Positions 24,931-29,600 of a stretch of DNA of 40,368 nt are shown piece after piece; the first letter of the stretch is position 1; every line of letters starts with the position of its first letter. This stretch comes from Syntrophomonadaceae bacterium. Its GTDB lineage: Bacteria; Bacillota; Syntrophomonadia; Syntrophomonadales; Syntrophomonadaceae. Where the stretch lies: the NCBI GenBank assembly GCA_012718855.1, contig JAAYBS010000063.1, positions 1 through 40,368 on the forward strand, read 5' to 3'. Position numbers and translations under genes: made by a program. The notes below the pieces were generated by a model. That model was not told where the DNA came from. It did not search any database and saw only the letters and a list, made by a program, of their open reading frames with translations.

Positions 24931-27009
24931 ATGAATAATAATGTTATTTGCCTAAATCCTGATATGTCAATATTAGAAACTGCCCAAATATTTCTGGAAA
25001 ATAAAATTGATGGTGCTCCGGTAGTAGAAAACGATAAAATTGTTGGTTTATTTACAAAAACCCATCTGATAAGGGCTTTGGCTAATGAGATGGATACGCA
25101 AAGGCCTGTAAGTGATTTAATGACCCATGGGGTTAAAGTTTTAGATCCTAACATGGATATTCGTGATGTTGAAATAATGTATACTGGCAGATATCCAGTG
25201 GTTGAGAATGGTAAAATGATTGGGTTTATAACCAAGTCTGATATAATGATAGCTCTTAATGAAATTATTGATGATATATCAGGACAACTGGAAACTGTAA
25301 TAAACTCCGTTTACAATCCGGTTATTGCTATCGATAAAGACGGAATTATACGTATTTGGAATCGGGCTATAGAGAAATATAGTGATATGGACCGTTCGAT
25401 GGTTTTAGGGCAACATATTAATAAAGTAATTCCCGAAAGTGCATTACAGGATATTATTAGATCCGGGCAAAGTGAATACGGTATTAAAATTAAAATAGGC
25501 GATAATTCATTTATTACCAATAGGGCCCCAATTATTAAAAACGGTGAGATATCAGGTGCCGTAGCAGTATTATATGATATTTCTGAATTAGAAACAGTCA
25601 CCAGGGAATTGGAATATGTTAAATCTTTAAATAAAGAACTTGATGCAATTATCGATTCCTCATTTGATGGATTATATATTACTGATGGAAAAGGACTAAC
25701 CTTACGTATTAATAGAGCAATTAAACGAATGACTGGTTTGGGGGAAGAGGATCTGGTTAACAAAACCATGTATGAACTGGTTGATAAGGGTATTCTGTCA
25801 CGTTCAGCAAGTGTTTTGGTTCTGGATCAGAAAAAACCGGTTACAACTACATTAACTACAGTTACTGGGACCCACTTGCTGGTTAGTGCAACGCCGGTGT
25901 TTGATGAAGAAGGAAATATATTTCGAATAGTTACCAGTGTCCGTGATATCAGTGAACTTAATATGTTAAAGCAACGCATTGAACAATTGGAAGGTTTAAG
26001 AAGTCATTTTGAATTTCAAATGAATCAAATGAGGGTAAAATTATCCGGTGATTTAATATTTAAGAATCGTGATATGGAGAATATAGTTTATCAGGCCATG
26101 AAAATAGCTGAGGTTGATTCAACCGTTTTACTTTCCGGAGAATCCGGTGTAGGTAAAGAATTAATAGCTACCATAATCCAACGTAACAGTAATCGCAAAA
26201 ATGGACCATTTATAAAACTTAACTGTGCTGCCATTCCTGAAAATCTAATTGAATCAGAACTATTTGGTTATGAAACCGGCGCTTTTACCGGGGCCCGCAA
26301 AGAAGGTAAACCTGGTTTGTTCGAACTGGCTAATGAAGGCACATTATTATTGGATGAAATAGGAGACATCCCTCTTCATCTTCAGGTAAAGCTATTACGT
26401 GCTATACAGGAGCGTGAAATAATTCGGGTAGGTGGAACCAAGTCAGTCAGAATTGATGTACGCATTATAGCCATAACCAATAAAGAGCTGGAAGTTATGG
26501 TGAAAAAAGGTGAGTTTCGTGAGGATTTATATTACCGGATAAATGTTGTTCCTATATATGTGCCTCCCTTAAGGGAGCGTAGGGAAGATATTCCATCGTT
26601 GATTAGACATTTTATGAATAACTTTAATCTTAGATATAATTATAAAAAAGATATGGAGGCAGAAGCAATTGAGGCACTAATGCGTTATAGCTGGCCGGGT
26701 AACATTCGACAATTAGAAAATCTAATCGAAAGACTTATTGTAACTACCAGTGCAGAAAAAATTAAACTGCAACATTTACCTGATTATATTCTTTCAATGG
26801 GCACAGATTGTGAGGAGTCAAAGGATCAAGCCATTACAGTTAATCAAATTATACCGCTTAAATTGGCAGTCGAAAGTGTTGAAAAGTTATTATTGCAAAA
26901 AACTTTTTCCATTGCCAATTCCTGTTTCAAAGCAGCCGAACTGCTGGAGGTTGATGCTTCCACTATTTCGCGTAAAGCACGTAAATATGATATTCCAATA
27001 AAAAATTAA
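24931..27009 (+). CDS. Sigma-54 dependent activator: CBS-CBS-PAS-PAS-AAA+-HTH
   Basis: Cytoplasmic enhancer-binding protein that opens sigma-54 promoters using ATP. Domains by rough residue: tandem CBS 1-110 (adenine nucleotide sensing), PAS 120-230, PAS 240-345, AAA+ 375-610, and a TyrR-like HTH at the C-terminus (AAELLEVDASTISRKARKY). The AAA+ core is intact: Walker A GESGVGKE near 402, the sigma-54 contact loop GAFTGA near 449, Walker B LLLDEIGD, and the PPLRERREDI sensor region. No receiver domain, so it senses ligands, not a kinase. It faces the CoA-transferase gene, which has a consensus sigma-54 promoter and upstream dyads, and is its likely target. The true start may be ATC 24910 (7 more residues), because the only good ribosome site lies there. 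Confidence 0.93.
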   Translation: MNNNVICLNPDMSILETAQIFLENKIDGAPVVENDKIVGLFTKTHLIRALANEMDTQRPVSDLMTHGVKVLDPNMDIRDVEIMYTGRYPVVENGKMIGFITKSDIMIALNEIIDDISGQLETVINSVYNPVIAIDKDGIIRIWNRAIEKYSDMDRSMVLGQHINKVIPESALQDIIRSGQSEYGIKIKIGDNSFITNRAPIIKNGEISGAVAVLYDISELETVTRELEYVKSLNKELDAIIDSSFDGLYITDGKGLTLRINRAIKRMTGLGEEDLVNKTMYELVDKGILSRSASVLVLDQKKPVTTTLTTVTGTHLLVSATPVFDEEGNIFRIVTSVRDISELNMLKQRIEQLEGLRSHFEFQMNQMRVKLSGDLIFKNRDMENIVYQAMKIAEVDSTVLLSGESGVGKELIATIIQRNSNRKNGPFIKLNCAAIPENLIESELFGYETGAFTGARKEGKPGLFELANEGTLLLDEIGDIPLHLQVKLLRAIQEREIIRVGGTKSVRIDVRIIAITNKELEVMVKKGEFREDLYYRINVVPIYVPPLRERREDIPSLIRHFMNNFNLRYNYKKDMEAEAIEALMRYSWPGNIRQLENLIERLIVTTSAEKIKLQHLPDYILSMGTDCEESKDQAITVNQIIPLKLAVESVEKLLLQKTFSIANSCFKAAELLEVDASTISRKARKYDIPIKN

Positions 27010-27077: not shown

Positions 27078-28448
27078 TTAGATGTCCTGTTTATTGGTTC
27101 TTGCCCAAATCTTCATTTTTTCTGCTTCTTTAATTAACTCATCACGGAAATCCGGATGAGCAACACTAATTAATTCTTCTGCACGCTGCCAGGTGGTACG
27201 GCCTTTCATTAAAGCTATGCCGTATTCAGTTGCCACATAGAAATTTAACGAGCGTGGGATAGTTACAATTGTTCCCGGGGAAAGAGTGGGTCTGATCCTG
27301 GATACTACTGTTCCGTCCCGCATAGTTTTGGTGGAAGATAAACAGATAAACCCTTTTCCACCTTTGGAGCGGAAGGAAGCAAATATGAAATCCAACTGAC
27401 CACCCGTTCCTGATATTTGTCTGGTTCCGGAAGCTTCAGAAGCTACCTGACCATAAAGGTCTACTTCAATAGCATTATTTATAGCAAATACCTTATCATT
27501 CATAGCGATAACAGCCGGGTCATTAGTATAATGAACCGGATAACTTGCACATACCGGATTATGGTCCAGGAAGTTATATAACTTATCAGTTCCCATGGCA
27601 AAGGTATAAACCATTTTTCCTTTATCTATGCTCTTGCGTTTGCCGGTAACTCGTCCACTCTCATGCATATCAACAAATGAATCAACCAGCATCTCGGTAT
27701 GAATACCTAAATCTTTTAGATCGGATTCAGCAATCATTGCCCCTATCGCATTGGGCATAGCTCCTATTCCTAATTGCAAACATGCTCCGTCTTCCATTTG
27801 CTCCATTACGACTCGAGCAATTGCTTCATCAGTCTCGGAGATTTTTGTGGGGGGCAGATTTAATAATTTTGGATTAGTCTGGCTTTCTACAATATAATCC
27901 ACCTGACTGATATGAATACCTTCTCCATTACCGCCCAGACAAACCGGTACGGAAGTGTTAACCTCTACAACTACTCTTTTAGCCTTTTCAACTACATAAG
28001 AAGTAATCGAATTTGAAGTACCAATATTAAAATATCCGTTACGGTCCATAGGAGCAACCAGCACAAAGGCCACATCAATCTGTACAAATTCTTCTATTAA
28101 TTTTCGGGCTTCATGATAAGTGATGGGAATGTAATTACATAGATTTTGCTCATGCAGGGCTCTTGAGAAACCTGAAAAATGCCAGTCATTAAAACGGAAA
28201 TGTTCTCTTTTGGGATCAGCTTTAACGATTTCAGGGATCATAGTAATAGTTACCGTACGCACCTTGACATCTTCCAGTTCGTTAACTCTTCTGGCCAATG
28301 CTGCATCCAGATCTTTTGGCTGCATTACAAATTCACCATATTGAACCCAATCCCCGGACTTAACTATTTTCACTGCTTCATCGGCTGATACCAGTTTATC
28401 CTGATATTGGTCCATATAATCGTTTGTACCGTTTAACATTAACGCCAT
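27078..28448 (-). CDS. Acetyl-CoA hydrolase/transferase family CoA-transferase (butyryl-CoA:acetate or 4-hydroxybutyrate type)
   Basis: 456 residues, full length for the family I type that swaps CoA between carboxylic acids through a glutamyl-CoA intermediate. The catalytic Glu is in INNAIEVDLYGQVASE; the glycine-rich oxyanion segments GNGEGIHISQVDY and ISGTGGQLDFIFAS are conserved, as is LQLGIGAMPNAI. In butyrate oxidisers such an enzyme activates butyrate with acetyl-CoA, while fermenters use it in reverse to make butyrate and acetyl-CoA. Direction is not readable here. GGGAGGAGG lies in front of the ATG. Transcription is predicted from the sigma-54 promoter 28636-28652, giving a leader of about 175 bases, under the convergent activator. 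Confidence 0.92.
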   Translation of the reverse strand: MALMLNGTNDYMDQYQDKLVSADEAVKIVKSGDWVQYGEFVMQPKDLDAALARRVNELEDVKVRTVTITMIPEIVKADPKREHFRFNDWHFSGFSRALHEQNLCNYIPITYHEARKLIEEFVQIDVAFVLVAPMDRNGYFNIGTSNSITSYVVEKAKRVVVEVNTSVPVCLGGNGEGIHISQVDYIVESQTNPKLLNLPPTKISETDEAIARVVMEQMEDGACLQLGIGAMPNAIGAMIAESDLKDLGIHTEMLVDSFVDMHESGRVTGKRKSIDKGKMVYTFAMGTDKLYNFLDHNPVCASYPVHYTNDPAVIAMNDKVFAINNAIEVDLYGQVASEASGTRQISGTGGQLDFIFASFRSKGGKGFICLSSTKTMRDGTVVSRIRPTLSPGTIVTIPRSLNFYVATEYGIALMKGRTTWQRAEELISVAHPDFRDELIKEAEKMKIWARTNKQDI

Positions 28449-28635
28449 AATAAAGACCTCCTCCCAAATAATTACTCAAAATATACTCACATTTATATTT
28501 AAGTCTTTCTGCTACTAAGTAATAGCTTTCTATTTAGCTATTAACTATATTTATTTGATACCAGGGTTATTGAAAGTGTAATCCCCCCGACCCCCCCTTA
28601 ATTTATAGATTAAACCCTGCCTAATTTGCTTTATT

Positions 28636-28652
28636 TGCAATAAGTGTGCCAA
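28636..28652 (-). promoter_or_regulatory. Sigma-54 (-24/-12) promoter of the CoA-transferase gene
   Basis: The minus strand reads TTGGCACACTTATTGCA: the -24 GG and the -12 GC have the required 10 bases between them, and all of TTGGCAC and TTGCA match the consensus. Transcription would start near 28625 and run into the CoA-transferase gene. It is the only such site I found by eye between the two divergent genes. Confidence 0.85.
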
Positions 28653-28770
28653 TATAATATAAATTGAATTAAGCAGTTAACCCTTGCATTTATATTGGGA
28701 CCTCAGCTTTTAAAATAGGTTAAGCCTCTTAATCTGCTTACATGAGACTAGTTCTTCATTGCAAATGATT

Positions 28771-28855
28771 AAGCATAATTGCAATATTGCATTGCAATTA
28801 TGCAATATCAAATAAATAAGTTCTATAGCCATTTATACAGATTGCATAATTGCAA
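28771..28855. promoter_or_regulatory. Cluster of TTGCA-N4-TGCAA dyads, probable activator binding sites
   Basis: Two perfect dyads: TTGCAATTATGCAA (28792-28805) and its exact reverse complement TTGCATAATTGCAA (28842-28855), centres 50 bp apart. Two near matches overlap on the left: AAGCATAATTGCAA (28771-28784, 8 of 10 arm bases), whose centre is 21 bp (two helical turns) from the first perfect site, and TTGCAATATTGCAT (28779-28792, 9 of 10). All lie about 146-230 bp upstream of the predicted sigma-54 start, the usual enhancer distance. The rest of 28449-29033 is AT-rich and shows no gene I can support. Confidence 0.7.
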
Positions 28856-29033
28856 AGCCATATATAACTAGATAAATTTTATTTACAATCATTTTGGTGA
28901 TAAAATAGAATGCAGTAAATTTAAGGGGCATATATTATTTCGATTATTGACAACGGGACTGAAAAGAAGAGTTAAAACATCCAGTAATATTGCCCAACTA
29001 ATAAAAAAGCGTTTGAGAAAGCGGGGCTAAAAT

Positions 29034-29600
29034 ATGCTAAAAACTTTAATGGTAGATTACCCAATTAATTATACCGGTAAGGAATTATGTTCTCATTGGA
29101 TTTATAGCAAATTTCATTTATTGGGTGATGCTATTGTTGCTTTTATTGGTGAAGCAAATGTATCTCTTGACAATATGGTGGATCTAACCGATGTAAAGGA
29201 AGGGGATTATATCTATTCACCATTAATGCTGCATTTCCTGGTTGAACATTTTAACCCTGATCTGGAACTGGCAATATACCGGCAAAGAATATTGATATCA
29301 TCAATTAAAGAAGAACTTGAAATATTTGAAATTCCGGTAATCCGTATGGGTGATGATTTATTTGTTCGTCAGGCAAAATTATCAGTATCAGTTGCTACAG
29401 TTTCGCCTACATCAACACTTATTCATACGGGATTGAACATTAAAACTGAGGGCACTCCCATTAAAACTTCCGGATTAAACCAGTTGGGCGTAAATGATAT
29501 ACCATCCTTTGCCAATAACGTAATGAAGCGTTATCAGCATGAACTTGAATTAATTTATGAGGCACGTTGTAAAGTACGGAGTCATAAACGTGGGTTCTAA
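29034..29600 (+). CDS. DUF366 family protein
   Basis: 188 residues. Its first half matches DUF366: YTGKELCSHWIYSKFHLLGDAIVAFIGEANVSLDNMVDLTDV, read as three adjoining blocks (SHWIY, GDAIVAF, LDNMVDL). The second half holds ISSIKEELE and SVSVATVSPTSTLIHTGLNI, as in homologues from Clostridia and archaea. No catalytic site or membrane segment is recognised, and the function is unknown. GCGGGG lies 8 bases before the ATG. It is divergent from the CoA-transferase gene across a 585-base control region, so the dyads there might also affect it, although I see no sigma-54 promoter pointing this way. It is followed by its own terminator. Confidence 0.75.
   Translation: MLKTLMVDYPINYTGKELCSHWIYSKFHLLGDAIVAFIGEANVSLDNMVDLTDVKEGDYIYSPLMLHFLVEHFNPDLELAIYRQRILISSIKEELEIFEIPVIRMGDDLFVRQAKLSVSVATVSPTSTLIHTGLNIKTEGTPIKTSGLNQLGVNDIPSFANNVMKRYQHELELIYEARCKVRSHKRGF

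Follow-up and report, generated by a model that had tools for sequence, protein, structure and literature searches.

The window, i.e. the whole stretch of 40,368 nucleotides analysed here, originates from a Syntrophomonadaceae bacterium, a member of an anaerobic group whose way of life is probably syntrophic, with degradation of fatty acids. Syntrophic bacteria that oxidize fatty acids live close to thermodynamic equilibrium and have numerous CoA-transferase and thiolase paralogues. The incomplete 2.1 Mb genome to which the window belongs (G000) contains fifteen CoA-transferase matches over several contigs, a large paralogue set, and encodes a sigma-54 DNA-binding domain (Sigma54_DBD). The locus under study comprises two convergent genes for a sigma-54 activator and a CoA-transferase (Table 1). 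One contig scan for related loci returned five, and the named genomes with a related locus are Syntrophomonadaceae STF1_93, Syntrophomonas sp. DTU018 and S. zehnderi OL-4.

Table 1. Features of the sigma-54 locus in the window.
Feature	Position	Strand	Remarks
Sigma-54 enhancer-binding protein gene	24931..27009	+	Pfam PF00571, PF00989, PF00158, PF25601; HTH alignment
CoA-transferase gene, target gene (COG0427; putative butyryl- or 4-hydroxybutyryl-CoA:acetate CoA-transferase type)	27078..28448	-	PF02550 and PF13336
Predicted leader, 177 nt	28449..28625	-	placed from the -24/-12 box and established sigma-54 geometry
Sigma-54 promoter (-24/-12), TTGGCACACTTATTGCA	28652-28636	-	exact match; GG at -24, GC at -12, spacing correct
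D3, promoter-proximal dyad, TTGCAATTATGCTT	28771..28784	-	2 mismatches; exactly 21 bp from D2
Extra dyad between D2 and D3, ATGCAATATTGCAA	28779..28792	-	1 mismatch; sister genome G001 has ATGCGATATTGCAA
D2, perfect dyad, TTGCATAATTGCAA on the minus strand	28792..28805	-	exact TTGCA-N4-TGCAA
D1, perfect dyad, TTGCAATTATGCAA on the minus strand	28842..28855	-	50 bp from D2

The activator is composed of two CBS domains, two PAS domains, an AAA+ domain (Sigma54_activat), an AAA lid and a C-terminal Fis-type helix-turn-helix (HTH), and this order bears out the description in an earlier note of the neighbour as a convergent sigma-54 activator with CBS and PAS domains. Its assignment to the enhancer-binding proteins is based on the PF00158 match at 1e-68, the Walker A sequence GESGVGKE, the ESELFGY..GAFTGA signature and the HTH. 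The best NCBIfam model is TF_PrdR (NF041552), an equivalog whose cut-off of 795 bits is above the 518 bits obtained, and the AtoC model gave 331 bits against a cut-off of 714. The convergent CoA-transferase had been called butyrate-type; the COG0427 type stands on both of its Pfam domains, while butyrate specificity does not, since the full-length match to TIGR03948 (butyryl-CoA:acetate CoA-transferase) reaches 583 bits with a cut-off of 674.8. The nearest solved structures are those of 4-hydroxybutyrate CoA-transferase (3eh7/3gk7). The protein is placed in the same superfamily as TIGR03948, with butyrate as a candidate substrate.

An exact TTGGCAC-N5-TTGCA element occurs only once in the window, with 0.03 expected, and this unique match is the correctly spaced minus-strand -24/-12 promoter proposed earlier. 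Transcription is predicted to start near 28625, 12 bp past the -12 GC. A scan for sigma-A promoters upstream of the CoA-transferase gene gave five weak matches compared with 4.1 expected. Within the predicted leader, a G-rich or Shine-Dalgarno-like element (GGGGGTGAT / GGAGGTGGT) is located at 28565-28600 of the minus strand. Most orthologues have it about 60-200 nt 5′ of the CoA-transferase start, whether or not a sigma-54 promoter is present, and it likewise comes after the thiolase sigma-54 promoter; it possibly represents a 5′ mRNA stabilizer or a standby site.

Upstream of the promoter, two perfect 14-bp sites, TTGCAATTATGCAA (28792-28805) and TTGCATAATTGCAA (28842-28855) as read on the forward strand, are exact reverse complements of each other. 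They are the only exact TTGCA-N4-TGCAA dyads in the 40 kb, where 0.09 are expected, and none of 100 shuffles contained two, so that this part of the earlier claim is above chance. The two near copies mentioned there, one of them two helical turns away, are likewise present, namely the extra dyad and D3, the latter 21 bp from 28792. The stated distance of 146-230 bp upstream of the start refers to the predicted transcription start at about 28625; counted from the ATG at 28448, it is 323-407 bp. With up to two mismatches allowed, dyads are not enriched over the whole window (24 found, 29 expected), and the signal is thus a local cluster.

The conservation of this array was followed in 54 genomes of the family, 18 of which contain a close CoA-transferase; all orthologues come from one bacterial family and several from MAGs. 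Where the CoA-transferase gene adjoins the CBS-PAS activator gene and the upstream DNA is readable, sigma-54 promoter and dyads are present in 14 of 15 genomes (G000, G001, G002, G009, G012, G013, G023, G043, G047, G061, G063, G066, G067 and G068). In G068 the upstream region ends at the contig end, and in G001 adjacency is deduced from activator and upstream region lying on separate contig ends (C228, C132) that match the window arrangement. Four genomes with a CoA-transferase of 69-72% identity and no adjacent activator (G006, G021, G052, G059) have neither box nor array. The difference between 14/15 and 0/4 corresponds to a Fisher p of 0.0013, with related sequences counted as independent. 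Loss of the dyads upstream of orthologous CoA-transferase genes had been named as the finding that would speak against the circuit; they proved to be conserved wherever the activator is the neighbour, apart from the one genome.

Eleven of the 14 share one geometry, D1 - 50-56 bp - D2 - 21-23 bp - D3, with each dyad at most three mismatches from the 10 specified bases, and none of 300 dinucleotide shuffles was as good. G013 and G002 keep the D2-D3 pair alone at this geometry, and almost every orthologue has a pair of dyads with 21-23 bp spacing in its upstream region. Without any preset spacing, the histogram of inter-dyad distances has its maxima at 21 bp (10 genomes) and 50-56 bp. D3 lies at a variable distance from the box (49-173 bp in the eleven, as much as 194 bp in G002) and orthologues differ in the four spacer bases; what is kept are therefore the half-sites and the internal spacing. 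In G021 (2.94 Mb; C1:2203923-2206743), a paralogous CoA-transferase and a larger sigma-54 activator form a second convergent pair, which has equivalents in several relatives and no TTGCA dyads directly upstream of its CoA-transferase.

Exact dyads together with a sigma-54 box also occur at beta-oxidation thiolase promoters in G000, G001, G002, G011 and G022. Outside long open frames, the exact dyads of the window genome are the two in the window and one on contig C229, located upstream of the thiolase gene with the sigma-54 box ATGGCATAAATATTGCT. The spacer bases of the thiolase dyads differ in G001, G002, G011 and G022, the G009 thiolase promoter has a one-mismatch site, and that of G012 has no dyads. 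Exact dyads inside long open frames, e.g. on contig C26 of the window genome and many in relatives, were set aside as chance occurrences. A tandem-dyad pattern scanned over 41 genomes irrespective of sigma-54 gave at least 35 matches and none for the reversed pattern, an imperfect control as it contains CpG steps. The sites are mostly intergenic, and in the majority of these a perfect sigma-54 box lies no more than 500 bp away, usually at 160 bp or less. Among them are sites of other gene sets, named by reading the sequence, such as a putative 3-hydroxybutyryl-CoA dehydrogenase (G004) and an AmiS/UreI-like transporter (window genome), which means that TGCA-type dyads are probably common to several activators. 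The transporter site (L230, contig C185, about 1501-1620) consists of tandem TGCA-N4-TGCA dyads and the box CTGGCATATACCTTGCA, and contig C87 of G001 shows a similar tandem site with a sigma-54 box. In a different family, three TTGCA-N4-TGCAA dyads and a sigma-54 box are located upstream of an apparent ThDP-dependent enzyme gene (L129, G035 C86, about 1940-2170).

The sigma-54 promoters next to paralogous CBS-PAS activators, which are 40-52% identical, were gathered without reference to any motif, and all 4-base dyads with spacers of 0-12 (3,328 dyads) were enumerated. GTTG-N8-CAAC ranked first and TTGC-N6-GCAA second, the latter at 12 of 33 promoters (in shuffles 0.56 on average and at most 5); combined, the two give the paralogue operator YGTTGC-N6-GCAACR. 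At several of these promoters the proximal site begins 102-103 bp before the box. The operator of the window clade reads ATTGCA-N4-TGCAAT, with inner A/T and no outer G/C: G at position -1 is found in 35 of 36 paralogue half-sites (one site entered twice) and in none of the 14 half-sites of the window clade. The HTH sequences of the two groups differ as well (TTRQMA..DASTVVRKAAKYG versus KAA..DASTISRKARKY). Since the outer G is lost together with the changed HTH, the activator itself is indicated as the binder, and this covariation is the best sequence evidence that it reads the dyads. At promoters of activators lacking CBS domains, exact dyads were found in 3/24 cases as compared to 12/33 at CBS-PAS promoters (p 0.067, not significant alone), the three being thiolase promoters.

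The observed promoter, dyads, conserved geometry, co-occurrence with the activator gene and operator/HTH covariation are best accounted for by a three-dimer enhancer for the neighbouring activator, which would drive sigma-54 transcription of the CoA-transferase gene and often of the thiolase gene; we assign this reading a probability of roughly 85%. The dyads have the properties of upstream activating sites (UAS): they lie upstream of the promoter, are kept with the activator gene, and D3 is 49-194 bp from the box. This conservation supports the sigma-54 circuit with the dyads as putative activator sites that the earlier note had suggested. From these sequence features we infer the subsequent steps, i.e. 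binding, hexamer assembly, looping, transcription start and signals. D1, D2 and D3 would each be bound by one activator dimer through the C-terminal HTH. Activators of this type form a hexameric AAA+ ring, which three dimer sites would fit, and the two helical turns between D2 and D3 would fit dimers positioned side by side. Switched on through its N-terminal CBS/PAS domains, the activator would assemble its ring and loop to the sigma-54 holoenzyme at the -24/-12 box, and CoA-transferase transcription would begin at the predicted start. In the window genome, the same activator probably also drives the thiolase gene on C229. Some observations count against this reading: the dyads and box at the ThDP-enzyme gene in the distant genome G035; a more distant CoA-transferase (63%) beside the activator in G022 that has neither dyads nor box, although dyads are present at the G022 thiolase; and the dyad-free G012 thiolase.

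Regarding the signals, the canonical CBS ribose-binding motif, G-h-x-T/S-x-x-D/N, is present in CBS2 as G-[FIM]-[IL]-T-K-S-D in all nine aligned clade members and is altered in CBS1 (G-L-x-T-K-T-H, with His replacing Asp), so that nucleotide sensing appears possible at one site per CBS pair. The switching by adenine nucleotide state and a PAS ligand that the earlier note proposed is a hypothesis, with the canonical motif in one of the two CBS repeats. It is a tentative and rather doubtful extension that the CBS-PAS activator ties the CoA-transferase (activation) and the thiolase (cleavage) to adenylate charge and a redox or acyl signal, that beta-oxidation would thus form one energy-switched regulon, and that paralogous activators with diverged operators would run parallel beta-oxidation sets in the same cells.

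Different proteins might be considered as binders of the dyads. A PAS-only activator without CBS domains is encoded beside the thiolase gene on C229, and an exact dyad lies between such an activator and the thiolase, upstream of the sigma-54 box, in G000, G001 and G002; this protein, or both activators with the same specificity, could hence occupy the sites. However, G013 keeps its CoA-transferase dyads, and a search at 1e-100 finds no thiolase-linked activator in it; in G022, the thiolase has a box and three dyads, and the 4 kb inspected there contain no activator gene. Furthermore, the thiolase-linked activator of G012 is 71% identical, yet dyads are missing there, and the HTHs of the two activators are quite different, all of which makes this explanation unlikely. 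Perfect short dyads are also typical of TetR- and GntR-type regulators, and an unrelated repressor or global regulator, e.g. a fatty-acid regulator of one of these types, could act over the sigma-54 promoter. Against such operators, the sites are positioned 49-194 bp upstream of the box and do not overlap it, they accompany the gene of the CBS-PAS activator and change together with its HTH, and related dyads occur at sigma-54 promoters beside paralogous activators. We consider a regulator of this kind quite improbable.

The target might also be another gene, as the dyads lie in an intergenic region shared with a divergent DUF366 gene (29034 in the window), 180-260 bp from its start. In G023, however, the first divergent gene is queD-like and the next one queC-like, DUF366 lies two genes beyond, and the dyads remain on the CoA-transferase side; the same dyads of this clade also occur at thiolase promoters, and the sigma-54 box is oriented toward the CoA-transferase. 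Control of DUF366 is thus very improbable. On the plus strand of the window (28900-29035), the frame from 28901 reads ...YCPTNKKAFEKAGLKY, which is similar to the C-terminal end of an intact QueC-like protein in G023 (CSSCLRNKEAFVKAGVLY), and queD/queC appear to have decayed in the window genome between dyads and DUF366. Finally, the missing overall enrichment at two mismatches would suit chance AT-rich repeats, but the exact sites exceed those in shuffles and the array is kept in different genera, its internal spacing being constant while the spacer bases vary. Chance, with a next to negligible probability, is ruled out by this conservation.

The preferred reading, an enhancer for the CBS-PAS activator, provides a concrete candidate regulon for fatty-acid metabolism with activator, operator, promoter and two target genes. 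Its operator rule tells paralogous activators apart, and the three-dyad geometry is open to in vitro work. We found no literature on Syntrophomonas sigma-54 enhancers (one match concerns Sporomusa), on a TTGCA dyad joined with a sigma-54 UAS, or on the regulation of CoA-transferase and thiolase paralogues in syntrophic fatty-acid oxidizers. In E. coli, the sigma-54 activator AtoC controls the CoA-transferase operon atoDAEB for short-chain fatty-acid use, the same logic as in the window circuit. Unlike the window activator, AtoC is a two-component regulator, and the atoDAEB CoA-transferase is of a different type.

For the Clostridiales, 39 activator groups have been reconstructed (Nie et al. 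2019, PMC6615313). Their UAS, of which there are often several, lie for the most part 100-250 bp upstream, and 15 groups use TGT-N10-12-ACA. A 2025 survey lists COG0427 and thiolase among sigma-54 targets (PMC12316311), and a proteomic study of S. wolfei does no more than mention PAS/sigma-54 regulators, Swol_0456 among them (PMC4324140). Since such regulons and targets are already published, the kind of system is known. The main text of PMC6615313 does not mention Syntrophomonas, and its Table 1 gives no CBS-PAS activator with a single-subunit CoA-transferase/thiolase regulon. Activator clade, operator, three-dyad array and CoA-transferase/thiolase regulon appear to be new relative to the papers considered, the main text and Table 1 of PMC6615313 among them. 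The earlier view of the dyad as a new operator agrees with the literature found and needs qualification, since the dyad is related to the paralogue GTTGC-N6-GCAAC, which is close to the TGT-N10-12-ACA class as described in PMC6615313.

PrdR, the activator of proline reductase genes, is the best family match of the PAS-AAA-HTH part, and its operator belongs to the TGT-N10-12-ACA class (PMC6615313). It differs in its target, and the window activator has two N-terminal CBS domains and scores below the PrdR cut-off. In the case of NifA/FhlA-type UAS (TGT-N10-12-ACA), YGTTGC-N6-GCAACR of the paralogues may be viewed as TGT-N12-ACA with inner TGC/GCA, and the paralogue clade largely has the outer G, whereas the window clade, with the outer G in 0/14 half-sites, has inner A/T and falls outside this class. 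Closest overall are the Clostridiales regulons such as CrbR, AhcR, XcgR and PrdR, which, according to PMC6615313, share one-component PAS activators, a usually adjacent target, multiple dyad UAS before a -24/-12 promoter, targets in CoA/butyrate metabolism, and CBS among the N-terminal domains. They differ from the window clade in the operator, which is TGT-N10-12-ACA in the 15 groups reported there (PMC6615313) and TTGCA-N4-TGCAA in a three-site array here.
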